Shown here in pieces: positions 7,832 through 33,777 of a stretch of DNA of 42,642 nt. Under the pieces are notes generated by a model. It made no database searches, was not told the origin of the DNA, and was given only the letters and a program-made list of their open reading frames with translations. Location: NCBI RefSeq assembly GCF_015207455.1, contig NZ_JADEWV010000034.1, positions 1 through 42,642 on the forward strand. Reading direction: 5' to 3'. The position numbers were made by a program, and so were the translations under genes. Every line of letters starts with the position of its first letter. Within the stretch, counting starts at the first letter, position 1. Source of the DNA: Microcoleus sp. LEGE 07076 (GTDB lineage: Bacteria > Cyanobacteriota > Cyanobacteriia > Cyanobacteriales > Microcoleaceae).

Positions 7832-7931
7832 AACTGTTGACTGTTGACTGTTGACTGGGGAATTGTTGACTGTTGACTGTTGACTGTTGACTGCTGACTA
7901 CTGACTGCGGACTAATGACTAATGACTAATG
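7832..7931. repeat. TGTTGAC / TGACTAA heptad tract running into a start codon
   Basis: Repeated TGTTGAC units change into TGACTAA units. The last AATG of the tract is the start codon of the TauE-like permease at 7929, so the tract fills the entire position where a ribosome-binding site would be. Confidence 0.85.
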
Positions 7932-8774
7932 AGTATCACTGAATTATTGATTTTGGGTGCATCCGGACTTTTTGCCGGAATTCTAGCGGGATTTTTGGGT
8001 ATCGGTGGCGGTACGGTGCTGGTGCCTTTGTTGGTGGCTCTCAATTACGCCCCGGTGCAAGCGGTTGCTACTAGCGGTTTGTCGATCGTCATTACAGCTC
8101 TTTCTGGTAGCATCCAGAATTGGCGGATGGGCTATCTCAGTTTGAGTCAAGTCGCAGGCATCGGATTTCCCGCCGTCATCACCGCACAAATCGGTGCTTA
8201 TTTTGCTGGAATATTTCCACCTTATTTATTGTTAGTTTGTTTTGGATTGTTGTTATGGATAAATATTTATTTAATTGAAGTTCGCAAGCGCCTGACAGCT
8301 AAGAAGAAAGCGGAAGTAGAACAAGGGGAACAACCAGAAAATGCTCAGTTATTAATTACAGATCGCGAATTACCCAAGAATTCAAATATTTTATACAATC
8401 CAACTTTTGCTAAAATTGCAACTGGCAGTGCAGCGGGTTTATTAGCGGGTTTGTTCGGGGTAGGCGGCGGCGTAATTATGGTTCCCCTGCAAATTTTGCT
8501 GTTAGGGGAAAGCATTAAAACGGCTATTCAAACCAGCTTGGGAGTCATCGTGATTACGGCAATTTCGGCGACGGCGGGACACGCGGCGCGCGGGAATGTT
8601 TTGTGGGTTGTGGGGTTGATTCTGGGCGGCGGCGGTTTGTTGGGAGCGCAAATCAGCACCCGGTTTTTGCCGAGATTGCCCGATCGCACTATTAGTTTAG
8701 CTTTTCGATCGCTCTTGGCAATTCTCTCGATTTATATTTTCTGGCAAGCTTGGCAAAAATTTAGTCATGGGTAA
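7929..8774 (+). CDS. TauE/SafE-family (DUF81) membrane permease
   Basis: 281-aa polytopic inner-membrane protein with two internally similar halves. Each half opens with a glycine-rich motif: GLFAGILAGFLGIGGGTVLVPLL near residue 13 and GLLAGLFGVGGGVIMVPLQ near residue 174. The halves are joined by a charged loop (about 118-150). This arrangement defines the TauE/SafE/YfcA family, which moves organic sulfonates, sulfite or other small anions; the substrate cannot be told from sequence. The ATG at 7929 lies in the last unit of a TGACTAA tract and has no recognisable Shine-Dalgarno. The gene appears monocistronic. Confidence 0.9.
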   Translation: MSITELLILGASGLFAGILAGFLGIGGGTVLVPLLVALNYAPVQAVATSGLSIVITALSGSIQNWRMGYLSLSQVAGIGFPAVITAQIGAYFAGIFPPYLLLVCFGLLLWINIYLIEVRKRLTAKKKAEVEQGEQPENAQLLITDRELPKNSNILYNPTFAKIATGSAAGLLAGLFGVGGGVIMVPLQILLLGESIKTAIQTSLGVIVITAISATAGHAARGNVLWVVGLILGGGGLLGAQISTRFLPRLPDRTISLAFRSLLAILSIYIFWQAWQKFSHG

Positions 8775-8780
8775 TGACTG

Positions 8781-8981
8781 TTGGCTGCTGACTGTTAACT
8801 GTTAGTTGTTAGTTGTTATTTGTTAGTTGTTATTGGGAATTGAGAATTGGAAATTGGAAATTCGTAGCAACTAACCAATAACCAATAGCAAACAACCAAT
8901 AACAACTAACCAATAACCAATAACCAATAACCAATAACAACTAACCAATAACTAATGACTAATGACTGTTGACTACTGACT
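8781..8981. repeat. TTAGTTG and AACCAAT repeat arrays with inverted symmetry
   Basis: GTTAGTTGTTATT-type units (about 8800-8835) are complementary to AATAACAACTAACC-type units (about 8895-8950). The region between two convergent genes can therefore fold into long alternative hairpins. It ends in TGACTAC heptads that overlap the stop codon of the next gene. Confidence 0.8.
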
Positions 8982-9777
8982 ACTGACTGAGTTTCTTGAT
9001 GGCGCGAGTCAGACGCTGTAAATAAGGCTTGACAATTTCTTGATTTTGCTGCTGCAATTGGGAAACTTGCTGCTGCAAATGCTGAATCTCGGTTTGGAGT
9101 GTGGCTGCGTCTATTGTCGGTCGATCGAGCAAATCCTGCAATTGTTTCACAGAGCCTTGAATTTCATTCAAATCTACTTGGGTGGATTGCTCCTGCAACT
9201 GAGCTGTAATAGTTTTCACCTCAGTTAACTTTTCGTCCATCAATAAAAATCGGACGTTGACATTTCCCCAATCATGCTCTGTGAGGGCGCTATTTTCCAA
9301 AAACCCGAGTTTTTGCTGCAAATCCGACAGGATGGCGTAGAGTTCATCAGAATCGGCAGGTAGCGCCTGCGCTTGGCGTTCGAGGGATGCTACGGCAGCT
9401 TGCAACTCGGCGATGGCGCTCGATTCCAAGCCGAGGAGTTTTTGTTTCAAGTCGGAGACGGCGGTGTAGAGTTCCGCAGGTTCTCCAGGTAGAAGCTGAA
9501 TTTGCCGCGATCGACCTTCTGCTGCGGCCTGTAGCTCCGCGAGCGCAGAATTTGCCTTTAGTTGCATTTGTTGCTCGAAACGCTGGCGATTGGCGATATT
9601 CAGCGATATGGCTGCGGTTAAGGGGGCTGCCGCGTAGAGAATTTGCCCTGACAATCCCGCAGCAATCGTGCCAATCGCTGAACCGGCAACAGAGGCGTAC
9701 TCTGCCAATTCTAGCCAATCCGGCTGGTTCGTGGAATTTTTCAAAGCTGGGAATGATGCTTTTTCAATTTTCTGCAT
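8980..9777 (-). CDS. Hypothetical coiled-coil protein with hydrophobic N-terminal segment
   Basis: 265 aa, no recognised family. Residues about 27-62 form a small-residue-rich hydrophobic stretch (ASVAGSAIGTIAAGLSGQIL) that could be one or two membrane helices. From about 70 on it is Gln/Leu-rich coiled coil. A ~46-residue unit is duplicated: SALAELQAAAEG...DLKQKLLGLESS and SAIAELQAAVAS...DLQQKLGFLENS. The last three codons and the TAG stop lie in a TGACTAC heptad tract, so the exact C-terminus depends on repeat length. The gene stands alone, convergent with the permease. Role unknown. Confidence 0.75.
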   Translation of the reverse strand: MQKIEKASFPALKNSTNQPDWLELAEYASVAGSAIGTIAAGLSGQILYAAAPLTAAISLNIANRQRFEQQMQLKANSALAELQAAAEGRSRQIQLLPGEPAELYTAVSDLKQKLLGLESSAIAELQAAVASLERQAQALPADSDELYAILSDLQQKLGFLENSALTEHDWGNVNVRFLLMDEKLTEVKTITAQLQEQSTQVDLNEIQGSVKQLQDLLDRPTIDAATLQTEIQHLQQQVSQLQQQNQEIVKPYLQRLTRAIKKLSQ

Positions 9778-10082
9778 AGCCTTTTAGTCGTAGTCTGATA
9801 GATGGCGATAGGGACATGATAAAAGCGATCGGCAAATAAATCTGGGCTCTTTGTCAAATTTTCGGGATTGTCAGAGGTTTATTGACACTGGTTTCAACAA
9901 AGAATCCAACTTTCGCGAAGTTCCCAACCCGCTGGCTGAGTATATCTTCCCCAATCTCCAATCTAACATCTCAAATCCTGTGACTTCTGCCGAAGGCCGA
10001 CGGATGAGCGTGAGTGTCCTCAAAGCGGCCGCTGTCGGGTAAAATGCAGAATGCGCGGCTGTCTGTCAGGAGTATATATAAA
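9778..10082. other. Intergenic region upstream of the 108-aa gene
   Basis: 305 bases with no convincing gene. It must hold promoters for the divergent coiled-coil and 108-aa genes. A possible -10 TAAAAT is at 10040-10045 and a good ribosome-binding site, AGGAG, is at 10068-10072. Nothing else was recognised. Confidence 0.4.
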
Positions 10083-10409
10083 ATGGGTCTCAAGATTATT
10101 CAAAGCTACGATAACAGTTTTGTCCTCGAACCGAATGCTAAAGCTGCACTGTTCGGTTTGTTAACGGGTGAAAACTTTCTCCAACAAGTAGCGGTGCAAT
10201 TGCAGTGTTCGCGGATTGAGTTTGCTGAGTTACTTTTTGTGCCAGTACCCTACAGTAGCGACACGCCGAAGGGAATGCCTGCTGAATTTGAAAAGTATCA
10301 CGAATCGATCGATTTTGCGATCGTCAACGTCCCGCCCAATTTCATGTTCCAAGCCAAAATATTTAAACCCAGCCGCCTCTGTGCCGTTTATCGCGTTTTT
10401 AAGAGTTAG
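10083..10409 (+). CDS. Unknown 108-aa protein upstream of a GIY-YIG gene
   Basis: Small soluble protein, MGLKIIQSYDNSF..., with no recognised domain. The start at 10083 is supported by AGGAG at 10068-10072, ten bases upstream, and by the drop in coding character before it; an upstream in-frame start would add 23 unlikely residues. It has mixed alpha/beta composition with a PVPYSSDTPKGMP loop. It is followed after 66 nt by a GIY-YIG family gene in the same direction, so the two may be co-transcribed. Function unknown. Confidence 0.7.
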   Translation: MGLKIIQSYDNSFVLEPNAKAALFGLLTGENFLQQVAVQLQCSRIEFAELLFVPVPYSSDTPKGMPAEFEKYHESIDFAIVNVPPNFMFQAKIFKPSRLCAVYRVFKS

Positions 10410-10433
10410 GTAAAGGTGGGTTAATTTGTGGTT

Positions 10434-10473
10434 TAATCTAAAATCTAAAATCTAAAATCTAAAATCTAAAATC
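10434..10473. repeat. CTAAAAT heptad tract before a start codon
   Basis: About five tandem CTAAAAT units end three bases before the ATG of the GIY-YIG gene (10476), occupying the ribosome-binding region. Confidence 0.85.
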
Positions 10474-10475
10474 GG

Positions 10476-11015: not shown

Positions 11016-11034
11016 TCTTATTCTGTTCTCTGCA

Positions 11035-11322
11035 TCTGCGTGCATCAGCGTCTATCAATTGTCATCTGCGGTTCAGAAATTATCTTTTTTTTTACCGCAG
11101 ATACGGACAGATGAACGCAGATGAACGCAGATGAATGAGATTGATTTTGGTGGAAGATGATTCGGTGGTTGTTGAGTGGATTTGACAATAGGGAATCTGC
11201 GTGAATCGGCGTTTATCAATTGTCATCTGCGGTTGCAAAATTATCTTTTTTTTTACCGCAGATACGGGCAGATGAACGCAGATTCACGCAGATGAATGAG
11301 ATTGATTTTAGTGGCAGATGAT
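11035..11322. repeat. Two direct copies of a 127-bp hairpin-forming repeat
   Basis: Copies at 11035-11161 and 11196-11322 have equal length and are nearly identical. Each contains ATCTGCGGTT..., a run of T, then ACCGCAGAT, so each can fold on itself, plus tandem GATGAACGCA units. They are separated by a 34-bp sequence (11162-11195) that reappears at 11429-11462. The region 11016-11490 holds no gene. Such ACCGCAGAT elements are common interspersed repeats in cyanobacteria. Confidence 0.85.
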
Positions 11323-11462: not shown

Positions 11463-11490
11463 ATGATATTATTTGTGGGTTCGATCGACC

Positions 11491-14400
11491 TTACTGCGAA
11501 TTTGTTAACTTTGCTAAAACGGCGGCGAATCGAGCCGGATCGATCGGCTTTGCTAAATGTTCGTCGTAACCGGCCGCGATCGCCCGATCTCGGTCTTGTT
11601 GGCTAGCATAAGCTGTCAGCGCTACCGCCGGCAAGCGCTTGATTTTGTCAGATTCGGACGATCGCACTTTGCCGATCAGCGAGTAGCCGTCCTCAACGGG
11701 CATCCCGATGTCGCTGACTAGAATATCCGGCGGCGACTGCTGCAAAATGTCGATCGCCTCGTCAGCCGAAGCAGCGGCTGTCGCCTGCGCCCCCCACTGT
11801 TCGAGGGCCACAATCAAAAACTCCCGGTTGTCGGGTTCGTCGTCAACAACTAACACTTTTAAACCGGCCAACATCGCCGCCGGACGCATTTGAGGGGCTT
11901 TCTTTTCCTCTCTCAACTGTCGCTGCTGACGGCTCCGCTGTTTGAGCGGCAGCATGACGGTGAATGTCGCACCCCTGTCTTTACCTGGACTTTCGGCGCT
12001 TACAGTGCCGCCGTGGAGTTCCACCAAGTGCCGGACGATCGCCAATCCCAGTCCCAAACCGCTGTCAGCCCTTGTAATTGAGCCGTCTGCTTGTCGGAAG
12101 CGATCGAACACGTAGGGCAGAAACTCGGCAGAAATGCCTTTTCCGGTATCGCTGACACTAATTTGCAGGTAATTGGGCGATGGGGAATCAGCCACAGCTA
12201 GCGCCGACAAACGCAGTTTCACGGTTCCGCCCGCTGGCGTAAACTTGACGGCGTTTGTCAGCAAATTCGAGACTACCTGCTGCAACCTCTGGTTATCGCC
12301 CCACATCAAACTGACTGCGGGGTCTAATTCAGAAGAAACCGTGACAGACTTAGCCTGGGCGGCGAACATGACTGAACTCAGAGCAATTTCGATCGTCTTT
12401 GACATGACGAACCAGCCGGGTTTGATCGCTAGCTTGCCTTGAATAATCCGGGAAACGTCGAGCAAATCTTCGACTAGCTGCGCCTGTACCCTTGACTGAC
12501 GCTCGATCGCTTCCAAACCGCAAGCTAAAGAATTTTCCGTGTACGGGCGGCTGCGGAGTATCTGCGCCCAGCCCAGAATCGCGTTGAGAGGCGTGCGGAG
12601 TTCGTGGGAAAGCGTGGCGAGAAACTCGTCTTTCAGGCCGTTGATGGCTTCTGCTTGGGCCCTGGCTGCTTGTTCGCGATCGAGCAACTGAGCGAGTTCT
12701 GCCTCGACTTGCTTGCGATCGCTGATGTCGGCGACGATCGACATACAGTTTATGTTGCCTTTAGCGTCGCGGACTGGAGTTGCCCACAAACCGATGTCGA
12801 TCGAGGTACCGTCTTTCCGTTGGCGCTGGGTTTCCATGCCCGCGATCGCCTTTCCTTGACTAATTTTTTGCAACTTAGCGCTGAATTCCTCCCGCTTGTC
12901 TGCGGGAATGGAGGGCAAAAATTGACCTGTCACCTCTGATTCTGACCAGCCAAAAATCCTCTCGGCGGCTGGGTTCCACATTTTCACAATCCCGTCGTCG
13001 GCGCTAACAACGGTAATTCCTAGGGGACAAGCTTGGATCAAAGCTTCCAAAGTTTGGTTGGTTTCCGATCGCGCTGCTTCTGCTTGTTTGCGATCGGTGA
13101 TATCCACGTTCACCCCGATCGCCCGCTGGGGCAAACCCCGGTCGTTCTGAAACACCTTAGCCCTGCAAGCAATCCAGCCGACGCTGCTGTCTGGGCGGCA
13201 GATGCGGAACTCAATGTTTAATTCTTCCCCGGATGCTGCGGCCGCCTGCAACTGCTGTTGAGTGAAAGCGCGATCGTCTGGATGCACCATTGCCAGCAAA
13301 TTCTGATAGCTGCTGTCGAAACCGCCGACTGGTAGTCCGTACAAAGCCTCTAACTCCGGCGTACACGCGAGTTCGTCGGTTTCGACGTTCCATTCAAAAG
13401 TTCCGATTTTGCCTGCTTGCTGAGCGATTTGCAGCCGTTCTTGATTGTTTTTGAGTTCTGCTTCCACTCGGGAGACTTCGGTCAAGTCGATGTAAAATGC
13501 GACGATCGTCTCTGGTTCGCCCTTGTCCGGGCACAAAGTCGTCCCGCCCATCAGCAGCGGCACGCGGCTGCCGTCTTTGCGGATGTACTCTTTCTTGAAA
13601 GGAGTTGCGACTCCCGATGCCCGCAGTTCCCCGGCCGCCTTGGCGTCGAGGTGCAGGTATTCGGAGGGGGTCATCCTGTCCCAGCGCATTTGACCCGAGA
13701 GCAAGTCCGATCGGGTGTAGCCCACCATGTTCAGCAGGCAGTCGTTGGCGTAGGCGATGCGGCCGCTAAAATCTCCGATCGCAACTCCGAAAATATTGGA
13801 ATCTAACAGCCTCCGAAATAAAGCTTCGCTTTGCTGGATTACCCGTTTTGCTTGGTTGCGATCGGTGATTTCGGCAACTACGCTGCTGACACCCAACAGC
13901 GTTCCCCATTCATCGCACACGGGGTAAAAGCTGACTTGCCAATCCCGCACAACTCCCGGCTGTTGAAGGGTTGCGGCCTTAAGTTCCAAGTCGAGCACGG
14001 GGGTTTGCGTAGCGAGCACTTGGCGGTAAATCGGCTCTACCAGATCGGCAAGTTCCGGTATCGCTTCTCTGACGGTGCGCCCGAGGTGCTCGGCGATCGA
14101 TCGGCCGTTGATCTGAGCGAGGCATTCGTTCATGCGGATGTAGCGCAAATTGGTATCGACAAAGCACAGCCCGACTGGTGTGGTGTTGTAAACTAAGTCG
14201 AGTTCTGCTAGTTGGCGGCGAATGCGTGTTTCGTTTTCTCGGATCTGGTTTTGGGCTTGTTTGCGATCGGTGATATCGAACACGAAGAACGATCCTTTGT
14301 CTGTGGATCCTTCCAAAATTCCGGCACCGATAAAAATTGGGAAGCGCGTCCCATCTTTGCGGATGAATTCTTTTTCATAAGGCTCGCAACTTCCTGCGGC

Positions 14401-17004
14401 TGCGACTTGCGCTACAGCGACGCGATCGAGTTCTGCATATTCCGGCGGCGTGAGATCCAGCCAGCGGATCTGTCCCGAAACTAACTCTGCTCTGGTATAT
14501 CCGATCATTTCCAAGAAAGCGTCGTTAGCTTCAGTAATTTGACCGCCCGCATCCCAGAAACCGATGCCCATCATGTTAGATTCTACCACGCTGCGGAAGC
14601 GTTTTTCGCTTTCTTTCAAAGCTATTTCGGTTTGTTTTGCCGCGGTAATATCTGCGAGAATTATACCCGCGCCGATGATTTCTCCCCTTTCATTTTTGAC
14701 TGGGTAGTAGTTGGCGAGCCAATAGCCGAACTCTCCTTGTTTTCCACGATTTTCGCCGCTAATTTCTACGTTTAAAACCGATTCGCCGGAGTCGAGAACT
14801 TGCTGAATTATTAATGCAAATTTGGGGGCAGATTCTGGGAACAATTGGCGGAAGTCTTTACCGAGATGCTGCGCGGCAGACAAACCGTTGAGTTCTGCTA
14901 ACACTTGATTGATGCGGATGAAGCGCATTTCGCGATCGAGAAAGCAAATCGCCAGGGGAGATGCTTCTAGGAGCGAGTCAATTAAGGCAAACGATTGCGC
15001 TGTTTGAGATAGTGCTTGTTGCGCTTCTGCATAAAGTCTGGCATTGTCTAGGGCAAAAGCGACATGGTATGCTAAATCTTCTAACATTGCCATGTCTTGG
15101 GAATTGTAGCGACTACCAGATTTAGATGTAAAGCAGGTAACAGCACCCATTACCCGCCCGCGGGCTAAGATCGGTACACAAGCGTGGGAGCCGAGATCGA
15201 GCGAGCGCAATGTTTCCATTTCTGCTGTATCTTCGGCTGCTGCTGCTAAAATCTCCTCATCCACTTCGGCAATTAGTTCCGATTTTCCGGTGCGAATTAC
15301 CAGCGGATAGCCATTAACAGCATCAGGGGCGATCGGACTACGGATTGTCAACTTATTCAGAATATCAACCGCAGAGGCTTGGGCGTGAGCTACAGCTGCG
15401 AGGCGCACTTTTGAGTCGGTTTCGATCAAATGAATGCAGCACCCGTCAGCGATCGAATTTACTGCTAATTCTGCGACCTTTTGCAGCACCGTTTCCCCGT
15501 CAAATGTAGCAGTCAGGATTTTGCTCGCTTCTGCTAAAAATGCCGCTCGCTGCTGTTCTTTTTCCGCTTTTTCTCGAGCTGCTAGCTCGATTGTCAACTG
15601 CAATCTTTGAGTTTCTGCAACTTTTAGTTCTGTGATATCGCGGGCGACAATCAATGCCGATTCTGGTACGCCCTCTTTGTCAAATTCTGGAACTACGCGA
15701 GATTGATAACTTCTGATACCCTCGGTTGATTGCGCCTGAAATTCTATAATTTCTTCTCTACCTGTTTCTAAGACTTTGTGCAGGGTTTCATCCCACATCT
15801 GGCACTGTTCTGGCGGCATTCCTAGTTCTTGACTGGTTTTTCCCAGAAAAAATGAAACTGGTTTTCCTTGGCTTCTGGCAACTGCTTGATTGACATAAAT
15901 ATAACGCAGTTCTTTGTCCGTGCGGATAATCATATCTGGCGTATTTTCTAGCAGCGTTCTCAGTTGCTGTTCGCTACTAGACAAAGCTGCTTGCGCTTGT
16001 TGTCTTTCGGTGACATCTCGCACAGTGCCCACGTATCCGATGAGTTCGCCGGAGTCGGAGAACATCGGCGAGGAACAAACGTTAATCCAGCGGACAATCT
16101 CTTCTGCTGTTTGCAGGCGATATTCGATCGCATATTCCCCACCTTCGCGAGTATAATCCAGCCATCGACTCAATACGCGATCGCAGTCTTCCGGGTGAAT
16201 GCAATTCTCCCAACCGTTTCCTAAAAGTTCTGCCAAACTCAAGCCAAAAATCGCCTGAGCGCGCGGGTTTGCATAGGTGTAGCGCCCCTCGAAATCCGCC
16301 ATGAAAATCCCCATCGGCGAACAGGAACTCAAGCAGCGAAATCGTTCTTCTTGAGCTTGCAGTGCTTCTTTCGCTACTGTCAGTTCGGCCGTCCGCTGTT
16401 TGACGCGGTTTTCTAGCTCAGTGTAGGATGAAGCTAGGGCTATTTCTGCTGTTTTGCGATCGGTAATATCGATGCCAGTTGCTACCACATATTCTACTAA
16501 ACCCTCGCCATCGAGCATCACTGTATTAGACCAAGAAATGAAGCGCTGCTCGCCACTTTTAGTTCGCCAATAATTTTGATATTTGCTGTAAAATTTTTCC
16601 GAGTTTAGTTTGCTAAAAACTGTTTGCACTGGCTTTATTTCTTCTGGAATTAAGAACAAATCCCAAACATATTTATCCACCACTTCTGCCCTCGAGTAAT
16701 CGGTGGTTTTTTCGCAAGCTTGGTTGAACCGGACAATCCGTCCTTGGCTGTCAAGAACTACAATCAAGCAAGCCGTCGTGTCAATTACTTTTGAAATAAT
16801 CTGGCGTTCTATTTCTAGTTCTTGTTCAGCAGACTTTAAGCCGACATACCAAGCGCCAACCATTCCAGCGGCAAAAAGTAATATTGCAGGAGTTGCCTGG
16901 AATGCAAAGACTAAGAGAGTTGTTAGCAGTAAGGCCGTGGCCGCGCTAAATGTAGCAATGCTGTAAGATTTAAGGGGTAAGGGCAAGACCTGAAACCGAC
17001 TCAT
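11491..17004 (-). CDS. Hybrid histidine kinase with nine PAS-like and one GAF domain
   Basis: 1,837 aa, the largest gene here. Two N-terminal membrane helices (about 14-50), then PAS-like repeats near 68-180, 220-335 and 346-470, GAF at about 480-650, and PAS-like repeats near 665-775, 800-915, 925-1040, 1053-1175, 1188-1300 and 1313-1430. The HisKA domain has phosphoacceptor His about 1467 in LSHELRTPLNA. The ATPase domain has NLLTNAVKF, SDTGKGIS and GLGLGLAIVRHL. A receiver domain at 1710-1830 has acceptor Asp about 1765 in VSDIGMP, with VVDDE, TAY and KP. Short coiled linkers with DITDRKQAE-type motifs join the sensors. It should autophosphorylate and relay to its own receiver; signals are unknown. 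The start MSRFQV is chosen because the 49 codons upstream are non-conserved in character. No partner regulator is adjacent. Confidence 0.93.
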   Translation of the reverse strand: MSRFQVLPLPLKSYSIATFSAATALLLTTLLVFAFQATPAILLFAAGMVGAWYVGLKSAEQELEIERQIISKVIDTTACLIVVLDSQGRIVRFNQACEKTTDYSRAEVVDKYVWDLFLIPEEIKPVQTVFSKLNSEKFYSKYQNYWRTKSGEQRFISWSNTVMLDGEGLVEYVVATGIDITDRKTAEIALASSYTELENRVKQRTAELTVAKEALQAQEERFRCLSSCSPMGIFMADFEGRYTYANPRAQAIFGLSLAELLGNGWENCIHPEDCDRVLSRWLDYTREGGEYAIEYRLQTAEEIVRWINVCSSPMFSDSGELIGYVGTVRDVTERQQAQAALSSSEQQLRTLLENTPDMIIRTDKELRYIYVNQAVARSQGKPVSFFLGKTSQELGMPPEQCQMWDETLHKVLETGREEIIEFQAQSTEGIRSYQSRVVPEFDKEGVPESALIVARDITELKVAETQRLQLTIELAAREKAEKEQQRAAFLAEASKILTATFDGETVLQKVAELAVNSIADGCCIHLIETDSKVRLAAVAHAQASAVDILNKLTIRSPIAPDAVNGYPLVIRTGKSELIAEVDEEILAAAAEDTAEMETLRSLDLGSHACVPILARGRVMGAVTCFTSKSGSRYNSQDMAMLEDLAYHVAFALDNARLYAEAQQALSQTAQSFALIDSLLEASPLAICFLDREMRFIRINQVLAELNGLSAAQHLGKDFRQLFPESAPKFALIIQQVLDSGESVLNVEISGENRGKQGEFGYWLANYYPVKNERGEIIGAGIILADITAAKQTEIALKESEKRFRSVVESNMMGIGFWDAGGQITEANDAFLEMIGYTRAELVSGQIRWLDLTPPEYAELDRVAVAQVAAAGSCEPYEKEFIRKDGTRFPIFIGAGILEGSTDKGSFFVFDITDRKQAQNQIRENETRIRRQLAELDLVYNTTPVGLCFVDTNLRYIRMNECLAQINGRSIAEHLGRTVREAIPELADLVEPIYRQVLATQTPVLDLELKAATLQQPGVVRDWQVSFYPVCDEWGTLLGVSSVVAEITDRNQAKRVIQQSEALFRRLLDSNIFGVAIGDFSGRIAYANDCLLNMVGYTRSDLLSGQMRWDRMTPSEYLHLDAKAAGELRASGVATPFKKEYIRKDGSRVPLLMGGTTLCPDKGEPETIVAFYIDLTEVSRVEAELKNNQERLQIAQQAGKIGTFEWNVETDELACTPELEALYGLPVGGFDSSYQNLLAMVHPDDRAFTQQQLQAAAASGEELNIEFRICRPDSSVGWIACRAKVFQNDRGLPQRAIGVNVDITDRKQAEAARSETNQTLEALIQACPLGITVVSADDGIVKMWNPAAERIFGWSESEVTGQFLPSIPADKREEFSAKLQKISQGKAIAGMETQRQRKDGTSIDIGLWATPVRDAKGNINCMSIVADISDRKQVEAELAQLLDREQAARAQAEAINGLKDEFLATLSHELRTPLNAILGWAQILRSRPYTENSLACGLEAIERQSRVQAQLVEDLLDVSRIIQGKLAIKPGWFVMSKTIEIALSSVMFAAQAKSVTVSSELDPAVSLMWGDNQRLQQVVSNLLTNAVKFTPAGGTVKLRLSALAVADSPSPNYLQISVSDTGKGISAEFLPYVFDRFRQADGSITRADSGLGLGLAIVRHLVELHGGTVSAESPGKDRGATFTVMLPLKQRSRQQRQLREEKKAPQMRPAAMLAGLKVLVVDDEPDNREFLIVALEQWGAQATAAASADEAIDILQQSPPDILVSDIGMPVEDGYSLIGKVRSSESDKIKRLPAVALTAYASQQDRDRAIAAGYDEHLAKPIDPARFAAVLAKLTNSQ

Positions 17005-17145
17005 TTTTGTTAACCTGTAGCGATGGCGCGATCGCACTATTTCTTCTGCTGCTGAAACAATATTGTTAAAATTAATAATAAGATTTGTATATACCAAACC
17101 AGATTTGTCTGGGATATGCCATCTTCCCAGAGACAGATTTACGGA

Positions 17146-17208
17146 AGTCAACAGTCAACAGTCAACAGTCAACAGTCAACAGTCAACAGTCAACAGTCAA
17201 CAGTCAAC
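17146..17208. repeat. Nine perfect AGTCAAC heptads
   Basis: AGTCAAC repeats nine times without error, followed by a degenerate unit and, from 17239, a CTCTCCCC-type pyrimidine tract. It lies in the 374-bp gap between the divergent hybrid kinase and GH2-like gene; the gap has no gene. Confidence 0.95.
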
Positions 17209-17378
17209 ACTCATCAGTCAGAAGCAAAATAGAATCTTTTTCCAACTCTCCCTCTCCCCATCTCCCACTCTCCCCCTCTCCCACTCCCCAGTCGCCGCAA
17301 CCAAGCAATTTAATTGGCAGCAGCTTATGATAGATCGAGGGACAAATTCGATCGGCGCATTTGGGGGAGAAACTTAAG

Positions 17379-25226: not shown

Positions 25227-26315
25227 TTAAACCGACAAATCTTGACGGGGTTTAAAAGTCTCAATCTGCCGCAATTTTTCGTATAATTCCCGTTCCTCTT
25301 CACTAATTTCCTTGGGAATTAACACCTGAATTTCTACTAGCTGATCGCCCCGATCGCCATTTCCAGTCGGATAGCCTTTATTTGCCATCCGCAACCGCTT
25401 TCCAGAGGTGACTCCCGGCGGTAGTTTCATCTTCACCGGGCCATCGAGCGTCGGCACTTCCACATCTCCACCTAGCACCGCTTCGCAGGGTGTCAGCAGC
25501 AATTGGCAGCAAATATCCGACATTTCTAAGCTAAAAAATGGATGGGGAGAAACCGTGATTTTTAAGTACAAATCGCCGCCACCAATACCTTGATTCCGCA
25601 GGCGAATTCGCTGGCCCGATACCATTGCCGCAGGCATATTTACTTCGATCCATCGCCCGTCATCCAAACGAATGCGCTCGGTACCGCCGGAATAAGCTTT
25701 TTCCAAAGGCAGAGTCAGCCGGGCCTCGATGTCTCTTCTGATTTCGCGATCGTCAATTTCTCTAGTTTCGCGTCGAATTTCGCGATCGACTGTTTCGCGT
25801 CGAATTTGGCGATCGTCCAAATCCCTTCCATCTTCCCGATAATTAGCAACATAACTCGTTTTTTTAGAAGCCGTACTCCACGGTTCCGAAGCGGCTACTC
25901 CCGGTGCATCATTCGCTGTCCCCATCCTCACTTCCCGCCGCCTTCCGAGCACTTGATCGAGAAATTTATTAAAATCGGAGTAATCGCTAAAATCGATTTC
26001 TTCGGCTGGTTTATTGCGGCTGCCTTTGTTATTTCCCCAACTTTTGAAATTGGGAAGTTTTACGCCTTGTTTGCCTTGAAATCCCTTTTGTTTCCAAAAT
26101 TTACTAAACCGATCGTATTGAGCTCGCTTGTCGAGGTCGGAAAGAATATCGTAAGCTTCATTAATATCCTTAAAGTTATCTTCAGCAAATTTGTCACCCG
26201 GATTCACGTCTGGGTGCAACTGCCTTGCCAGTCGGCGGTAGGCTTTTTTTATCTCATCAGCCGTAGCATCTCTGGAAACTCCCAGAATTTGATAGTAATT
26301 GCGAAAGTTTTGCAT
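25227..26315 (-). CDS. dnaJ: DnaJ/Hsp40 co-chaperone, CbpA-like (no zinc finger)
   Basis: 362 aa. The J-domain is at 5-70 with HPD at 34-36. A Gly/Phe-poor linker (75-160) is followed by an Arg/Asp/Glu repeat (about 162-192, DRxIRRET-like units). Then come the two C-terminal beta-sandwich substrate-binding domains (LTLPLEKAYSGGTERI, then PHPFFSLEMSDICCQLLLTPCEAVLGG...VKMKLPPGVTSGKRLRM). The CxxCxGxG zinc-finger repeats are absent, as in class B/CbpA proteins. It stimulates DnaK ATPase, and the nearest upstream gene on the strand is dnaK. The mRNA leader is a pure TTCCTTC heptad tract starting 4 nt before the ATG, with no Shine-Dalgarno. Confidence 0.93.
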   Translation of the reverse strand: MQNFRNYYQILGVSRDATADEIKKAYRRLARQLHPDVNPGDKFAEDNFKDINEAYDILSDLDKRAQYDRFSKFWKQKGFQGKQGVKLPNFKSWGNNKGSRNKPAEEIDFSDYSDFNKFLDQVLGRRREVRMGTANDAPGVAASEPWSTASKKTSYVANYREDGRDLDDRQIRRETVDREIRRETREIDDREIRRDIEARLTLPLEKAYSGGTERIRLDDGRWIEVNMPAAMVSGQRIRLRNQGIGGGDLYLKITVSPHPFFSLEMSDICCQLLLTPCEAVLGGDVEVPTLDGPVKMKLPPGVTSGKRLRMANKGYPTGNGDRGDQLVEIQVLIPKEISEEERELYEKLRQIETFKPRQDLSV

Positions 26316-26319: not shown

Positions 26320-26568
26320 GGAGAAGGAAGAAGGAAGAAGGAAGAAGGAAGAAGAAGGAAGACGGAAGAAGAAGGAAGAAGAAGGAAGAAGGAAGACGGA
26401 AGACGGAAGAAGGAAGACGGAAGAAGGAAGACGGAAGAAGGAAGAAGGAAGAAGGAAGAGGGAAGAAGGAAGACGGAAGAAGGAAGAGGGAAGAGGGAAG
26501 ACGGAAGAAGGAAGAGGGAAGACGGAAGACGGAAGACGGAAGAGGGAAGAGGGAAGAAGGAAGAAGGA
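26320..26568. repeat. GGAAGAA-type purine heptad/hexad tract (~250 bp)
   Basis: Almost pure purine on the plus strand, with mixed GAAGGAA, GAAGACG and GAAGAGG units. It directly precedes the dnaJ start on the minus strand, where it reads CTTCCTT. A complementary tract stands at 27094-27149. Frames through it give low-complexity EGRRK proteins that are not genes. Confidence 0.95.
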
Positions 26569-26603: not shown

Positions 26604-26925
26604 TTATCCTTGTAGTTTGTTGATTGTACTGACAATTAATCCTGTGAGTTCATCTGCTTCTTTGATAACTGGTGAGATTTTTTCTGGTGCTGCTAACCCC
26701 ACTCTTTCAGAAATCACTAGATGAGTATCCAGTTCTCTGAGCGAACCGAGAGCTATTCGCAAATATCGAATATACTCTTGTCTAGTAACAGGTCCATATC
26801 CCTCCGCAATGTTAGCTGGTACTGATACAGATGCACGGCGAATTTGACTGGTGATACCATAAAGTTCAGACTAATGAAAAGATTTAGTTAATTCGTAGCA
26901 AAGTTGACAAAGATAAATACCCCGC
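26604..26925 (-). pseudogene. Decayed four-helix-bundle (S23/intervening-sequence) gene
   Basis: The minus strand encodes SELYGITSQIRRASVSVPAN, IAEGYG, and on to the helix ending INKLQG and a TAA at 26604-26606. This is the hallmark of the four-helix-bundle family first known from 23S rRNA intervening sequences. In the same frame upstream, LCYELTKSFH is followed by TAG (26871-26873) and then SELYG, so one nonsense codon interrupts it. Further upstream the frame meets another TAG and no Met start is found. The 5' end is therefore lost. The remnant is about 90-105 codons of an expected ~120. It sits alone between two inverted heptad tracts in the dnaK-dnaJ gap. Confidence 0.8.
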
Positions 26926-27093
26926 TGCTAGATGTATTGTTCTCTATGGGTCATACAACATAATTCCCTCCTTACTTATCATAGTAATCTTTATCTAATT
27001 CAAAGAAGTATAGTGTAGGAGAGGAGAAAGAAAAGGATCTGAGAAGAATTAGGAAAAGAGCCGTCACATATTCTCGGCTGAAAATCCGCTATT

Positions 27094-27149
27094 TTCCTTC
27101 TTCCTTCTTCCTTCTTCCTTCTTCCTTCTTCCCTCTTCCTTCTTCCTTC
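27094..27149. repeat. TTCCTTC heptad tract, inverted relative to 26320-26568
   Basis: About eight TTCCTTC/TTCCCTC units end 2 nt before the dnaK stop codon (27152-27154). It is complementary to the GGAAGAA tract on the other side of the four-helix-bundle remnant. The two tracts thus form an inverted repeat flanking about 525 bp. Confidence 0.92.
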
Positions 27150-27151
27150 AA

Positions 27152-29284
27152 TTACAACCAATCGTCGTCATCATCCCAATCGTCGCTTTGATTTTGATAA
27201 GGGCGACTGGGGCGATTCGCGCTGCTTCTGCGCTCGGGTATGCGCTCGTAGGGGCGATCGCGCTCGTAGGGGCGATCGCGCTCGTAGGGGCGATCGCGCT
27301 CGTAAGGGCGATCGCGCTCGTAGGGGCGATCGGGAATTGGATCGACAGTCGATCGCCTGTACGGTTTAGCATTTTGATAATAGCTGCTGTCATCGCTGCG
27401 CCGCTTCGTACCGTCGCCCGTAAAAGTGCGCTTCACAGACTCAAAGAAATCATCATCATCGTCATCCATCGCAAACGCTGCAACTTCGCGGCTCAAATCG
27501 TAAAGAGCATCTTGCAAATCCGAGCCAACTCGATCGACACCCCGCTCGTCGTTGCGTTCCAAACTGTCTCGCAATTCCCGAATTAAAGTTTCAATTCGCT
27601 GGCGACTTCTTTGAGCAAACTGCATTCCGCGATCGAGCGCCACCTCTCGCAACTGCCGCTCAGCTTGATAAGCCAAAGCTTCAGCGCGATTGCGTTTTTC
27701 TACCTTTTCCCGCTGCAACTTATCAGCTTGAGCAAACTGTTCAGCATCGCGAATCATTTGATTCACTTCCTGCTGAGAAAGCGTCGAAGCACCTTGCACA
27801 GTAATGCTTTGTTCCCTGCCGGTAGTTTTGTCCAAAGCTGTCACCAACAGCATCCCGTTAGCATCAATATCAAAAGCTACTTGTACCTGCGGAATCCCTC
27901 GCGGCGCCGGCGGAATTCCACTTAATTTAAACCGTCCCAAAGACTTATTATCTCTGCCTAATTCCCGTTCCCCTTGGATCACATGAAGCTCTACCACAGT
28001 TTGGTTGTTTTCGGCAGTCGAAAAAATATCCGATCGCCTGACAGGAATAGTCGTATTCCGAGGAATCAATTTTTTCATCACCCCGCCGATCGTTTCCAAG
28101 CCCAGAGAAAGCGGTGTCACATCCAAAAGCAGCACATCGCGGACATCCCCCGCCAAAATCCCCGCCTGAATTGCCGCACCCACCGCCACAACTTCATCGG
28201 GATTCACATTTTGATTCGGCTCTTTATCAATCAAACTGCGAACAACTTCCTGCACCAAAGGAATCCGAGTCGAACCACCGACCAACACAACTTCATCAAT
28301 CCGAGCCGGACTCAAATTTGCATCAGCCAAAGCTTGTTTCACCGGACGGCGCAGCCGCTGCACCAAATCCGTGCACAGCCCCTCAAATTGACCGCGAGTC
28401 AGCCGCGTTTCCAAATGCAAAGGCCCATCTTCATTGGCATCAATAAACGGCAAATTAATCTCAGTAACACCGACTCCAGACAGCTCAACTTTGGCTTTTT
28501 CTGCCGCTTCGATCAACCGCTGCAAAGCTTGGCGGTTTTTCCGCAAATCCACGCCTTCTTTTTCCAAAAATTGTTCTGCCAACCAATCAACAATTTTGGA
28601 GTCAAAATCATTACCTCCCAATTGAGTATCGCCGCTAGTTGCTTTGACTTCAAATACTCCGTCTCCAACATCTAAAATAGATACATCAAAAGTACCGCCG
28701 CCCAAATCAAAAACCAAGATTGTTTGACTTTCTCGCCTTTCCAAACCGTAAGCCAAAGAAGCCGCCGTCGGCTCATTTAAAATCCGCTTGACATCAAGTC
28801 CGGCAATTCGTCCCGCATCCCGCGTCGCCTGTCGCTGCGAGTCGTTGAAATAAGCAGGAACAGTGATTACAGCCCCCGTGACTTCTTGTCCGAGATAGCG
28901 GCTGGCTTCATCGGCCAACTTCCGCAACACCATCGCCGCAATTTCCTCTGGTGCAAAATCTTTTTTCAGGCGAGGACATTTGATTTTGATGTTTCCGCTG
29001 TCGTCGCGCCGAGTTGTGTAAGGGACGCGCTTTGCTTCTGCTGTCAGTTCGGTATACTTGCGTCCGATGTACCGCTTGACAGCGTAAAAGGTGTTTTGCG
29101 GGTTGAGAACAGTTTGGCGTCTGGCCATCTGTCCGACAAGGCGTTCTCCTTCTTTTGTGAAAGCAACCACCGAAGGAGTTGTCCGCATCCCTTCTGCGTT
29201 GGCAATCACAACCGGTTTGCCGCCTTCCATGACGGCTACTACTGAGTTTGTCGTTCCGAGGTCAATGCCAACTACTTTTCCCAT
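27152..29284 (-). CDS. dnaK: Hsp70 chaperone DnaK with repetitive charged tail
   Basis: 710 aa from [14 protein letters not shown]. The ATG at 29284 is supported by AGGAGA about 10 nt upstream and by the family N-terminus; the longer frame adds 59 unlikely residues. The ATPase domain has the phosphate loops [10 protein letters not shown] and [10 protein letters not shown], and the substrate domain has [30 protein letters not shown]. In place of a short EEVD-like end there is a ~120-residue tail: a poly-Asp run, a Tyr/Arg region, five DRPYER units (about 651-682) and [10 protein letters not shown]. Long tails are known for some cyanobacterial DnaK paralogues. It folds proteins with DnaJ, whose gene lies 836 nt downstream. 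Confidence 0.96.
27254..27333. repeat. 18-bp tandem repeat of HIP1 octamers inside dnaK
   Basis: GCGATCGC occurs at 27254, 27272, 27290 and 27308, exactly 18 bp apart. A fifth, degenerate GCGATCGG is at 27326. Each 18-bp unit encodes one DRPYER hexapeptide of the DnaK tail. Confidence 0.95.
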
Positions 29285-30786: not shown

Positions 30787-30841
30787 GTTAGATGTATTGA
30801 GTTCGCATATAATCGAAATCAAAAGCTCGCTCCCAACAATT

Positions 30842-31674
30842 CCTCCAATCACAATAAAACTATGAAATTCTCCCTCGATGTAGAAAACAACCCCACAGGC
30901 TGGCCAGACCATACTCAGCTACCCGAATCTGACGGTACTTTTGTGAAAAACTTTCAAGAACATCCCCAAAGCATCTTACTAACCGATTCAATTACTTCCA
31001 TTTTAGAAAGAATTCACGCCGATGGTAACTATTGCATCGGTCAAGACTGCGGCATTTATTGGCGATTAACTGAGCCATTAGAAAAGGGTGCAGAAGCGCC
31101 AGATTGGTTCTACGTGCCCAATGTGCCGCCAACACTAGACGGTCAATTGCGCCGTTCTTACGTGATGTGGAAAGAATTTGTATCGCCGTTAATTCTGTTA
31201 GAGTTTGTATCGGGAAATGGGACGGAAGAACGGGACAGAACGCCTTTATTGCGCTCGGGAAAACAGGAAACTAAGGCTGGTAAATTCTGGATTTATGAAA
31301 ATGTCATCCATCCAGCATTTTACGGAATTTATGAAGTAAGCAAGGCTAGTGTAGAAGTCTATCACCTGATCGAAGATAGGTTTGAATTAGTTGCTGCAAA
31401 CGATCGCGGTCATTATCCGATTCCACAGTTAGGAGTGGAATTGGGAATTTGGCAAGGAATGTATCAAAATGCTGAGTTACCTTGGCTGCGCTGGTGGGAC
31501 AGTCAAGGGAATCTGTTGTTAACGGGTTCTGAAAGAGCCGAACAAGAACAGCAAATAGCTCAACAAGAGCGCCAAAGAGCCGATCGCGCCGAACAAGAAT
31601 TAGAGCAATTGCGCGCTCAGTTGCGATCGGCCGGCATTGAACCGGAATTGTAAATTGTCTTGTAAGTGCGATCG
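30842..31674. repeat. Tandem duplication, copy 1 (833 bp)
   Basis: Begins CCTCCAATCACAATAAAACT just before the Uma2 start and ends with the TGTAAGTGCGATCG tail after its stop. It matches copy 2 (31704-32494) apart from a 42-bp indel and three point differences that I can see. Confidence 0.93.
30862..31653 (+). CDS. Uma2/DUF820 family protein, duplicated copy A
   Basis: 263 aa. The DUF820 fold (PD-(D/E)xK nuclease-like) is shown by GYxCIGQD-like NYCIGQDCGIYW, PDWFYVPNVPP and ILLEFVSGNGTEERD. The C-terminus is a short coiled coil rich in Ala/Glu/Gln/Arg (SERAEQEQQIAQQERQRADR) ending RSAGIEPEL, as in many cyanobacterial Uma2 proteins. Nuclease activity is a family inference; the biological role is unknown. 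The gene follows vapC by 75 nt. The next gene is an almost identical tandem copy. Confidence 0.88.
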   Translation: MKFSLDVENNPTGWPDHTQLPESDGTFVKNFQEHPQSILLTDSITSILERIHADGNYCIGQDCGIYWRLTEPLEKGAEAPDWFYVPNVPPTLDGQLRRSYVMWKEFVSPLILLEFVSGNGTEERDRTPLLRSGKQETKAGKFWIYENVIHPAFYGIYEVSKASVEVYHLIEDRFELVAANDRGHYPIPQLGVELGIWQGMYQNAELPWLRWWDSQGNLLLTGSERAEQEQQIAQQERQRADRAEQELEQLRAQLRSAGIEPEL

Positions 31675-31703
31675 AACTCATTGCTGTTCTTGTCTCAAAA
31701 ACA

Positions 31704-32494
31704 CCTCCAATCACAATAAAACTATGAAATTCTCCCTCGATGTAGAAAACAACCCCACAGGCTGGCCAGACCATACTCAGCTACCCGAATCTGACGGTAC
31801 TTTTGTGAAAAACTTTCAAGAACATCCCCAAAGCATCCTACTAACCGATTCAATTACTTCCATTTTAGAAAGAATTCACGCCGATGGTAACTATTGCATC
31901 GGTCAAGACTGCGGCATTTATTGGCGATTAACTGAGCCATTAGAAAAGGGTGCAGAAGCGCCAGATTGGTTCTACGTGCCCAATGTCCCGCCAACACTAG
32001 ACGGTCAATTGCGCCGTTCTTACGTGATGTGGAAAGAATTTGTATCGCCGTTAATTCTGTTAGAGTTTGTATCGGGAAATGGGACGGAAGAACGGGACAG
32101 AACGCCTTTGTTGCGCTCGGGAAAACAGGAAACTAAGGCTGGTAAATTCTGGATTTATGAAAATGTCATCCATCCAGCATTTTACGGAATTTATGAAGTA
32201 AGCAAGGCTAGTGTAGAAGTCTATCACCTGATCGAAGATAGGTTTGAATTAGTTGCTGCAAACGATCGCGGTCATTATCCGATTCCACAGTTAGGAGTGG
32301 AATTGGGAATTTGGCAAGGAATGTATCAAAATGCTGAGTTACCTTGGCTGCGCTGGTGGGACAGTCAAGGGAATCTGTTGTTAACGGGTTCTGAAAGAGC
32401 CGATCGCGCCGAACAAGAATTAGAGCAATTGCGCGCTCAGTTGCGATCGGCCGGCATTGAACCGGAATTGTAAATTGTCTTGTAAGTGCGATCG
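31704..32494. repeat. Tandem duplication, copy 2 (791 bp)
   Basis: Offset 862 bp from copy 1, with a 29-bp unique spacer (31675-31703). It lacks 42 bp of copy 1, between two AAAGAGCCGA repeats that would favour slippage deletion. Confidence 0.93.
31724..32473 (+). CDS. Uma2/DUF820 family protein, duplicated copy B
   Basis: 249 aa. Identical in protein sequence to copy A except for loss of 14 residues (EQEQQIAQQERQRA) from the C-terminal coiled coil. The three nucleotide differences that I see elsewhere are silent. The start is ATG 31724, equivalent to copy A; an upstream in-frame start would add 29 spurious residues. Nearby promoter sequence up to CCTCCAATC is duplicated as well, so both copies may be expressed alike. 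Confidence 0.88.
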   Translation: MKFSLDVENNPTGWPDHTQLPESDGTFVKNFQEHPQSILLTDSITSILERIHADGNYCIGQDCGIYWRLTEPLEKGAEAPDWFYVPNVPPTLDGQLRRSYVMWKEFVSPLILLEFVSGNGTEERDRTPLLRSGKQETKAGKFWIYENVIHPAFYGIYEVSKASVEVYHLIEDRFELVAANDRGHYPIPQLGVELGIWQGMYQNAELPWLRWWDSQGNLLLTGSERADRAEQELEQLRAQLRSAGIEPEL

Positions 32495-32532
32495 CGCTCT
32501 GATGGGCGCGATCGCCCCTAAAAACTTTACAA

Positions 32533-32557
32533 GGGCGATCGGGAAAATCGATCGCCC
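32533..32557. terminator. GGGCGATCG / CGATCGCCC hairpin
   Basis: Nine-base perfect arms (32533-32541 and 32549-32557) with a 7-nt loop lie after the Uma2 copy B gene, in a HIP1-rich stretch. It is a possible terminator before the SPFH gene; no U tract follows. Confidence 0.45.
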
Positions 32558-32597
32558 CTATTGAAGCTAAAATCAAACAACAACTCAAAATAAATCT

Positions 32598-33689
32598 ATG
32601 GGACTCTTTGACAAGATTCGCGGCGAATTTGTCGATATCATTGAATGGTTGGACAATACCAGCGATACCATTGCCTATCGATTCGAGCGCCACCAAAACG
32701 AAATCAAACAAGGTGCTAAACTAACTGTACGACCAGGACAAATAGCAGTCTTTGTCAGCGAAGGTCAAGTTGCCGATGTCTTCGATCCAGGAATGCACGA
32801 ACTGTACACCCGCAACTTACCTCTTCTGAGCACCTTAAAAGGTTGGCCCTACGGTTTCAACTCTCCCTTCAAAGCAGAAGTCTACTTTTTCAACACCAAA
32901 ATATTTACCAACCTGAAATGGGGAACTGCTAACCCCGTAATTATCCGCGATCCAGAACTCGGCCCAGTGCGAATGCGGGCTTTTGGCACCTACAACATTA
33001 AAGTTTCCCATCCCGAAGAACTTTTAAAACAACTAATCAGCACAGACGGACTATTTCAAGTAGATGAAATTAGCGAACAACTCCGCAATACAATAGTCAG
33101 CGCCTTTGCTAATTGGGTTGGCAATTCCCGCGTTCCCCTGCTGGACTTTGCAGCCAACTACACCCACATGGGCGAACAGGTGCGAGTTGCCATACAGCCA
33201 AGTATCCAGCAATTCGGGTTAGAATTAACTCAGATATTAATTGAAAATATCTCGATGCCCGCTGAAGTGGAAGCAGCACTCGACAAACGAGCCTCGATCG
33301 GACTTCTAGGAAATATGCAGCAATATACCCAATATCAAGCTGCTAACGCCATAGAAGCATCAGCAAATAACCCCAGCGGCGGCAATCAAGCATTAGAATT
33401 AGGCATGGGAATGGCAATGGGTCAGCAAATGACAAATATGATGCAGCCGCCAGCATCTCAAACTCCGCCGCCGCCGCCTCCTCCACCAACACAAACTCAG
33501 TGGTATATTGCCCAAAACGGTCAACAATTAGGCCCTTTTGGATTGGAGCAACTTTTGCAAAATGGTTTGACACATCAGGTAATGGTTTGGCGATCGGGTT
33601 TTGAGGGCTGGAAATTAGCATCGCAAGTACCGGAATTAGCCTCTTTGTTGGCGACAGTACCGCCGCCTCCCCCGCCAGCAGCAGCCTAA
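32598..33689 (+). CDS. SPFH-domain protein (YdjI-like) with C-terminal GYF_2-like domain
   Basis: 363 aa. No membrane helix. Residues about 35-235 form an SPFH/band-7 domain of the YdjI or virion-core-like type (TVRPGQIAVFVSEGQVADVFDPG, VRMRAFGTYNIKVSHPEELL). A Met/Gln-rich stretch and a poly-Pro linker (about 288-297) follow. The C-terminal domain at 302-352 reads WYIAQNGQQLGPFGLEQLL...VWRSGFEGWKLASQVPEL, which matches the GYF_2/DUF4339 family. A second Pro run ends the protein. In Bacillus the related ydjI is adjacent to a zinc-ribbon gene and PspA; here a zinc-ribbon gene also follows 88 nt downstream. A role in membrane stress is inferred. Confidence 0.87.
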   Translation: MGLFDKIRGEFVDIIEWLDNTSDTIAYRFERHQNEIKQGAKLTVRPGQIAVFVSEGQVADVFDPGMHELYTRNLPLLSTLKGWPYGFNSPFKAEVYFFNTKIFTNLKWGTANPVIIRDPELGPVRMRAFGTYNIKVSHPEELLKQLISTDGLFQVDEISEQLRNTIVSAFANWVGNSRVPLLDFAANYTHMGEQVRVAIQPSIQQFGLELTQILIENISMPAEVEAALDKRASIGLLGNMQQYTQYQAANAIEASANNPSGGNQALELGMGMAMGQQMTNMMQPPASQTPPPPPPPPTQTQWYIAQNGQQLGPFGLEQLLQNGLTHQVMVWRSGFEGWKLASQVPELASLLATVPPPPPPAAA

Positions 33690-33706
33690 AATTTTGCATT
33701 TTTAGT

Positions 33707-33769
33707 TAATTGGTAGTTGGTAATTGGTATGCTTTCCCTATTACCAATTACCAATTACCAATTACCAAT
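33707..33769. repeat. TAATTGG / TTACCAA heptads forming a hairpin before a start codon
   Basis: TAATTGGTAGTTGGTAATTG (from 33707) is complementary to the ATTACCA array at about 33741-33769. The array ends 8 nt before the ATG of the zinc-ribbon gene (33778), which has no visible Shine-Dalgarno. The two genes are in the same direction, so this hairpin would lie in a shared mRNA. Confidence 0.8.
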
Positions 33770-33777
33770 AAACCATT

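Follow-up and report, generated by a model that had tools for sequence, protein, structure and literature searches.

Introduction

Tandem arrays of 7-nt units (heptad arrays) lie flush with the starts and stops of genes more often than chance allows in Microcoleus sp. LEGE 07076 and some relatives, as is confirmed here against a null model in two data sets. The starting point was a stretch of 42,642 nt (contig NZ_JADEWV010000034.1, assembly GCF_015207455.1; hereafter the window), which is one contig of a 6.79-Mb genome in 495 contigs. The closest named relatives of the host in a DnaJ comparison are Tychonema and Microcoleus, a group of filamentous habit, and heptanucleotide tandem repeats of filamentous cyanobacteria, termed short tandemly repeated repetitive (STRR) sequences, were reportedly described by Mazel in 1990. 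To our knowledge, their role has been open since then, and in the available text of a later paper, which cites Mazel (1990), the function of heptad arrays is likewise termed unknown (PMC2670836). The explanation favored here, with somewhat better than even confidence, is that the arrays are STRR-type repeats of intergenic spacers which, near starts, act as leaders that lack a Shine-Dalgarno (SD) motif, are low in G and fold weakly, and that they are not switches.

Heptad Arrays Are Flush With Gene Ends

The discovery set comprised 340 kb of the host genome (window included) and 400 kb each from three relatives (G019, G021, and G012), and the second set 800 kb of fresh sequence from G019, a genome also represented in the discovery set. 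Of the 20 host stretches, 12 were drawn from contigs already known to carry TGACTAA arrays, and those of the relatives were picked by synteny (discovery set) or at round numbers (second set). As the discovery stretches of the three relatives are syntenic, some of their arrays have a common origin, which was handled by an additional count with one vote per orthologue cluster. Genes in the discovery set were called with a hexamer model.

Period-7 arrays form the bulk of the intergenic repeats, with 63, 68, 72, and 61 arrays in the four genome samples; periods 4, 5, 6, 8, 11, 12, and 13 gave 0–3 arrays each, periods 9 and 10 at most 15, and the signal at period 14 is an echo of period 7. Of 292 period-7 arrays in all, 264 lie mostly outside called genes, and 223 of 1131 spacers contain a heptad cluster. 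The survey bears out the claim of the initial annotation of the window that several unrelated heptads share the 7-nt period: the commonest families are AAAATCT, AACAGTC, and AATGACT, and the TGACTAA trimer alone (up to 2 mismatches) has 696 overlapping matches in the host genome, compared with 1 for the control. Among the 16 commonest families, the only ones inspected for this feature, runs of G do not exceed three, with GGG found in AAGAGGG and AATTGGG.

For the comparison with chance, each heptad cluster was excised and reinserted at random in the same spacer, and both gene ends were then called anew (60 runs for the discovery set and 200 for the second set, with the same code). In the discovery set, 34 of 208 arrays were at most 3 nt away from a start vs. 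16.2 ± 3.1 of 194 in the null (largest run 25), and 59 of 238 were equally close to a stop vs. 18.0 ± 3.0 of 211 (largest run 25). Since about 20 of the 223 items are lost per null run, fractions are the fair comparison, and these amount to 16% vs. 8% at starts and 25% vs. 9% at stops. The second set gave 18 of 102 vs. 8.4 ± 2.4 of 98 at starts (largest run 16) and 22 of 88 vs. 7.8 ± 1.9 of 80 at stops (largest run 14). Stop codons at or inside the array edge numbered 37 in the discovery set vs. 7.5 in the null. The proposal that heptads keep closer to starts and stops than chance would have it thus held in both sets.

Within the window, the following features were found:

21–137, minus strand: CAATTCC and then AATGACT arrays (plus-strand reading); on the coding strand of the GTPase gene, the TTAGTCA array begins at the stop codon 137–139
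3935–3981, plus strand: ATTAGTC array enclosing the sensor-kinase stop codon 3937–3939
4010–4037: further array downstream of the sensor-kinase stop, oriented as the ATTAGTC array
7823–7932, plus strand: TTGACTG passing into a TGACTAA array, in register through the TauE start codon 7929
8778–8988, plus strand: heptad cluster occupying the convergent spacer between the TauE and coiled-coil genes and abutting both stops (8774 plus, 8980 minus)
10435–10473, plus strand: AATCTAA array of 5.6 copies, ending 2 nt before the ATG of P0004 at 10476
17146–17220, minus strand: AGTCAAC array (plus-strand reading) at the 5′ end of a long hybrid-kinase open reading frame (ORF)
26322–26568, minus strand: TTCCTTC array (coding strand) of some 35 copies, with 6 nt between its end and the dnaJ ATG at 26315; right arm of the dnaK–dnaJ inverted pair
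26604–26954, minus strand: broken 23S_rRNA_IVP-type reading frame between the dnaK–dnaJ arms, with an early in-frame stop (PF05635 in a relative)
27094–27149, minus strand: GAAGGAA array (coding strand) of eight copies, which begins 2 nt downstream of the dnaK stop 27152–27154; left arm of the dnaK–dnaJ pair
33707–33769, plus strand: TAATTGG copies, a 10-nt gap and ATTACCA copies, forming an inverted pair (score 21.0)

All eight contacts named in the initial annotation are present. On the start side, the TauE start lies within its array, and the starts of P0004, dnaJ, and the zinc-ribbon gene follow theirs after 2, 6, and 8 nt, respectively, the last being a contact with the ATTACCA copies at 33740–33769 of a pair that sits between the upstream stop at 33689 and the zinc-ribbon ATG at 33778. 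On the stop side, the codons at 137 (minus), 3939, 8980 (minus), and 27152 (minus) lie inside or at most 2 nt from arrays, and the TauE stop at 8774, absent from that list, is likewise flush. The four starts had also been described as lacking an SD motif, and by eye none has GGAG, GAGG, or AGGA at −20 to −5. The ends of the 8778–8988 cluster are inverted complements (score 24.5). Pfam supports the names TauE, DnaJ, HSP70, HATPase_c kinase, and GTPase/DUF697; the name GIY-YIG for P0004 has no match in Pfam or NCBIfam behind it, and for the zinc-ribbon (P0003) and coiled-coil (P0007) proteins no Pfam or NCBIfam match above cut-off was obtained either.

Three further observations concern genes beside these arrays. 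The ORF at 11491–17151 (minus) encodes a hybrid histidine kinase of 1886 residues with nine PAS S-box stretches (TIGR00229), and its TTG start lies within a heptad array; TTG 17151 is probably not the true start, for which a Met further in is likelier. The gene preceding TauE contains 15-bp tandem units at 7304–7711, and by eye its product resembles a pentapeptide-repeat protein. In the 3′ part of dnaK (27242–27332), an 18-bp unit occurs five times and encodes a peptide, RPYERD, that recurs in the tail of DnaK.

Arrays Follow a Strand Orientation Rule

In the host genome and the three relatives, the arrays are not only close to gene ends, but also oriented. Among discovery-set arrays no further than 30 nt from a start, C exceeds G on the coding strand in 63 of 73 (8 opposite, 2 equal), and in 37 of 42 (5 opposite) in the second set. 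The polarity is reversed at stops, where G exceeds C on the coding strand of arrays within 10 nt in 57 of 82 (24 opposite, 1 equal) and 26 of 29 (3 opposite), respectively. Counted by orthologue cluster, 25 of 30 votes are C>G at starts (4 opposite) and 36 of 51 are G>C at stops (14 opposite). Typical units before starts are TGACTAA, AATCTAA, TTCCTTC, and AATAACC, and those typical after stops (TTAGTCA, TTAGATT, GAAGGAA, and GGTTATT) are their reverse complements, such that the G-rich strand tends to point outward from the gene (5′ to 3′) at both ends in both data sets. The start rule extends to 30 nt and then fades (30 to 21 at 31–100 nt), and array-free leaders have no skew (535 C>G, 519 G>C).

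Many heptads bear stop codons and ATGs in all frames, and the ends of called ORFs might therefore simply land in the tracts. The null itself yields 8–10% within 3 nt, and TTG 17151 is probably such a case. However, the re-called null stayed below the observation in all 60 and all 200 runs, the stop-less heptad GAAGGAA is also flush at stops, and among the 35 of 50 flush starts that belong to genes with a conserved start, 29 obey the strand rule (C>G). A calling artefact is hence the least credible of the explanations considered, to the point of being negligible.

Array-Led Leaders Lack Shine-Dalgarno Motifs and Are Predicted to Fold Weakly

SD-like motifs (GGAG, GAGG, or AGGA at −20 to −5) were found in 0 of 50 array-led starts vs. 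327 of 1167 others in the discovery set, and in 0 of 29 vs. 136 of 568 in the second set. The mean predicted minimum free energy (MFE) of the leader, taken from −60 to +30, is −7.6 kcal/mol for array-led genes vs. −13.4 for array-free non-SD genes (p 1e-11). When the whole leader was flipped, a design that avoids an artificial inverted repeat, the mean MFE of array leaders fell to −14.0 and folding was stronger in 42 of 50. Base shuffling hardly changed the value (−8.0, p 0.15), and it is thus the G-poor composition rather than the order of the bases that keeps these leaders open. An open start region has been reported to suffice for SD-less initiation (PMC3121790), and SD-less cyanobacterial genes to compensate through weaker 5′ structure (PMC6847405), as far as the available text of the two papers goes.

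From this, a mechanism can be proposed. Arrays would grow and shrink, presumably by slippage, on the non-coding side and would be halted by coding sequence, so that their edge comes to abut the start or stop codon, at some genes in register with it. On the start side, selection may mostly retain arrays that have the G-poor strand as sense; these would become the 5′ leader and leave the start codon accessible for ribosome loading. On the stop side, where the G-rich strand is mostly sense, no effect on the protein was shown. Changes in length would modify the leader while leaving start, stop, and frame in place.

Array Length Varies Without More Frequent Shifts of Protein Ends

The genes of the window differ in how widely their arrays are shared. 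An array lies within 10 nt of the TauE start in 14 of 23 orthologues, with widely differing units (TTGACTG, CTACTGA, TAACTAC, AACTGTC, and TTCCTTC), and five of the remaining nine still begin with ATGACT, which is consistent with seeding at the start. The dnaJ start is flush in 17 of the 21 named genus loci. P0004 has a flush array in 12 of 27 genus orthologues, which is always AATCTAA, 2 nt from the ATG and 32–39 nt long, and is probably a single inherited array. For the zinc-ribbon gene, the window copy is the only one of 11 orthologues with an array within 10 nt. Under a looser definition of heptad families, the family differs between orthologous ends in 4 of 27 pairs flush at the start and in 8 of 45 flush at the stop, some of these involving arrays with a blurred consensus; a higher count of such swaps (18 at starts and 46 at stops, both directions counted) was rejected, as it was inflated by unit variants.

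The initial annotation had proposed that copy number varies and that, with a period of 7 not being a multiple of three, such changes could switch translation or protein ends. Variation is indeed found between related species: of 40 orthologous pairs of the same family, 35 differ in detected array length (15 of 18 at starts and 20 of 22 at stops). The switch itself finds no such backing, as shifted ends are no commoner with arrays than without, either N-terminally (17 of 57 array pairs vs. 139 of 635 array-free pairs, p 0.19) or C-terminally (17 of 83 vs. 114 of 609, p 0.66). This can be understood from the placement of the array, which is not part of the reading frame and whose border unit, in contact with the ATG or stop, persists when other units are gained or lost. 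A phase-variable switch is thus very unlikely, and although copy number varies here, between species, as it does at phase-variable simple sequence repeat loci, the protein ends are not shifted more.

AATCTAA Arrays and the Proposed Binding-Site Model

The most stereotyped leaders are those with AATCTAA. In the host genome, an ATG follows the array after exactly 2 nt in 29 of 72 distinct places (among the matches listed, of 116), and 29 genomes of the genus contain 834 places with a 2-nt and 143 with a 5-nt distance, compared with 38 at 2 nt for the reversed-pattern control. Such spacing would suit a model in which the arrays are sites for an RNA-binding protein or a modified ribosome and define a regulon, as MacGregor proposed for TAACTGA. 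However, of the 30 host 2-nt places inspected (out of 33), 14 lead into a coding-like ORF of 95 aa or more, 15 do not, and one runs off its contig; a dispersed repeat is present at 8 of these 30 places. Moreover, the same gene start carries unrelated heptads across species, which argues that no single recognition sequence is kept, and the binding-site model is accordingly considered unlikely. The spacing of AATCTAA arrays is a genuine but mixed signal; the reading of AATCTAA-NN-ATG as purely translational was dropped, given that about half of the fetched places head no coding-like ORF.

The dispersed repeat at the 8 of 30 places has a CCCCCGAATT...TCCGTGGGG-like core and ends in AATCGAATG. With its CCCCCGAATTTATCCGTGGGG-like core, the dispersed repeat stands beside AATCTAA-type heptads at several host places that lead into no coding-like ORF (L215, L220, L222, L226, L231, L234, L235, and L238).

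Leader Function and Mutational Origin

Several observations weigh against leader function as a full account. The lack of SD motifs is partly given by construction, because the place of an SD motif is already taken when an array lies no more than 10 nt from the start. Array-free leaders also fold more strongly when reversed, if to a lesser degree (−13.0 to −14.7; 124 of 200), and array-free non-SD and SD genes have the same leader MFE by this crude measure (−13.38 vs. −13.27, p 0.89), so that compensation by weak structure is not general in these genomes. Start codons at or inside the array edge are not clearly above the re-called null (13 vs. 9.9 ± 2.4; second set 9 vs. 4.5 ± 1.8, largest run 9), and the in-array start codon was dropped as a separate signal for that reason. 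As detected, only 8 of the 35 differences in length amount to an exact multiple of 7. The AACAGTC family is an exception to the start rule, as all 7 of its flush starts, including those of four TauE orthologues, have the TTGACTG orientation. The polarity at stops is beyond the reach of leader function and is not explained by it; array-free stops lean mildly to G>C as well (611 to 424), and in co-directional spacers the stop-side polarity is weak with 27 to 17 in the discovery set, but not with 17 to 3 in the second.

An alternative is a purely mutational origin, in which arrays seed at words of the gene border and grow outward with a built-in strand direction, without any role in translation. 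Suitable seed words exist, namely ATGACTA at starts and TTAGTCA-like words at stops, and genes begin with ATGAC at 19 of 50 array-led starts vs. 130 of 1240 of all genes. The outward G-rich strand at both gene ends belongs here too, as leader function alone does not predict it. On the other hand, the unrelated units TTCCTTC, AATCTAA, and TGACTAA all obey the start rule, this rule reaches as far as 30 nt before it fades, and AACAGTC-family arrays violate it at starts, all of which speaks against such an origin. A mutational origin without function is possible but doubtful, and G-poor leaders retained near starts remain the favored explanation.

Inverted Arms in the dnaK–dnaJ Spacer

The dnaK–dnaJ spacer is the foremost of some loci at which heptad arrays form inverted arms. 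In 21 of 21 genus loci, complementary arms span from near the dnaK stop, placed by a longer-ORF rule, to near the dnaJ start, and all reach a complementarity score of at least 12. Three states of the arms were distinguished, i.e., TTAGTCA with TGACTAA (11 loci, by reading), GAAGGAA with TTCCTTC (7 loci), and TTCGGCAACGGATT with its complement (3 loci); locus L257 mixes the GAAGGAA/TTCCTTC and TTCGGCAACGGATT states on one side. In the relatives displayed, the second state encloses a 23S_rRNA_IVP-type gene (PF05635). When arms of different genus loci are cross-paired, 42% reach a score of 12, which is about the expectation for three states; with all loci complementary, it follows that both arms change together. 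Either exchange of the whole inverted element or selection for a stem could possibly explain this joint change. As a tentative generalization, gene borders of the genus may be interchangeable, oriented heptad modules, in which any G-poor heptad would serve as leader and its mirror would follow the stop, and the dnaK–dnaJ spacer would exchange both, conserving the stem structure without conserving its sequence.

Outside the genus, 3 of 51 usable dnaK–dnaJ loci reach a score of 12, and 0.24% of 2550 cross-paired arms do so (8 of 80 loci were dropped from the count: three in which no dnaK stop was found, four with a spacer below 50 nt and one with Ns). A stem conserved across cyanobacteria is thus unsupported beyond the genus. 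Inverted arms were also rejected as a general rule: 45 array pairs in the same spacer comprise 8 inverted, 8 direct, 28 unrelated, and 1 ambiguous. End complementarity with a score of at least 15 occurs in 9 of 133 co-directional array spacers vs. 4.6 by permutation, a modest excess, and array-free spacers bear end hairpins as well (5 of 459 vs. 0.1 by permutation).

The IVP-family gene in this spacer is intact in relatives and has an early in-frame stop in the window. In the G008 spacer (L087, L249), an extra CAGTTGA array and more sequence are inserted within the IVP gene, which suggests that an element of this kind can take up other sequence that carries heptads.

Relation to Known Repeat Systems

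The arrays resemble STRR sequences in their 7-bp tandem units, their intergenic location, their large number per genome, the variety of unit sequences, and the filamentous cyanobacterial host. They differ in the strand rule and the gene-border excess measured here, neither of which was met in the available portions of the STRR literature. 23S rRNA intervening sequences contain an IVP gene (PF05635) within inverted arms, as does one state of the dnaK–dnaJ spacer; here, however, the arms are heptad arrays in an mRNA spacer, and the arms of other species are gene-less.

The closest precedent is the TAACTGA repeat, which in the Beggiatoaceae genome BOGUAY most often ends 1 nt before starts, mostly without a ribosome-binding site (RBS), and which in Cyanothece PCC 8801/8802 also directly precedes starts, whereas a Microcystis aeruginosa sample showed no start preference (MacGregor, 2015; PMC4679880; available text). 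Translational regulation was proposed, with S1, Csp, or a CsrA-like protein as binder (PMC4679880). The initial annotation had called the flush placement unusual, and while the excess is real in these genomes, flush TAACTGA before starts had already been published (PMC4679880). As far as that text goes, the two systems share a distance of a few nt from the start, a rarity of RBSs, a preferred orientation, and some overlap with upstream stops, and 7-nt indels between the two Cyanothece strains resemble the length variation seen here. In contrast to that single heptad, many unrelated heptads fall under one composition rule in the genomes analyzed here and are mirrored at stops, TAACTGA is outside the 16 commonest families, and the same gene bears different heptads in different species. 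The composition rule, the stop-side mirror, the controls, and the exchange of arms extend the published TAACTGA placement, and a search of the available literature found no report of a multi-heptad composition rule, a stop-side mirror, or paired arm exchange. A further study examined distance and orientation for the G-rich heptads GGGGA(T/C)T and GGGAATC of Nostoc and Xanthomonas, which are likewise 7-nt units and mostly intergenic; according to the text available, those of Nostoc are commoner on the strand opposite to aligned neighboring ORFs (34% vs. 18%; PMC4692102). In the genomes analyzed here, runs of G in the 16 commonest families stop at three.

Implications

The rule of strand and position makes the function of heptad arrays testable. 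The arrays offer a natural series of sequence-diverse leaders for the study of SD-independent initiation, and the dnaK–dnaJ spacer provides a case in which paired arms change together.

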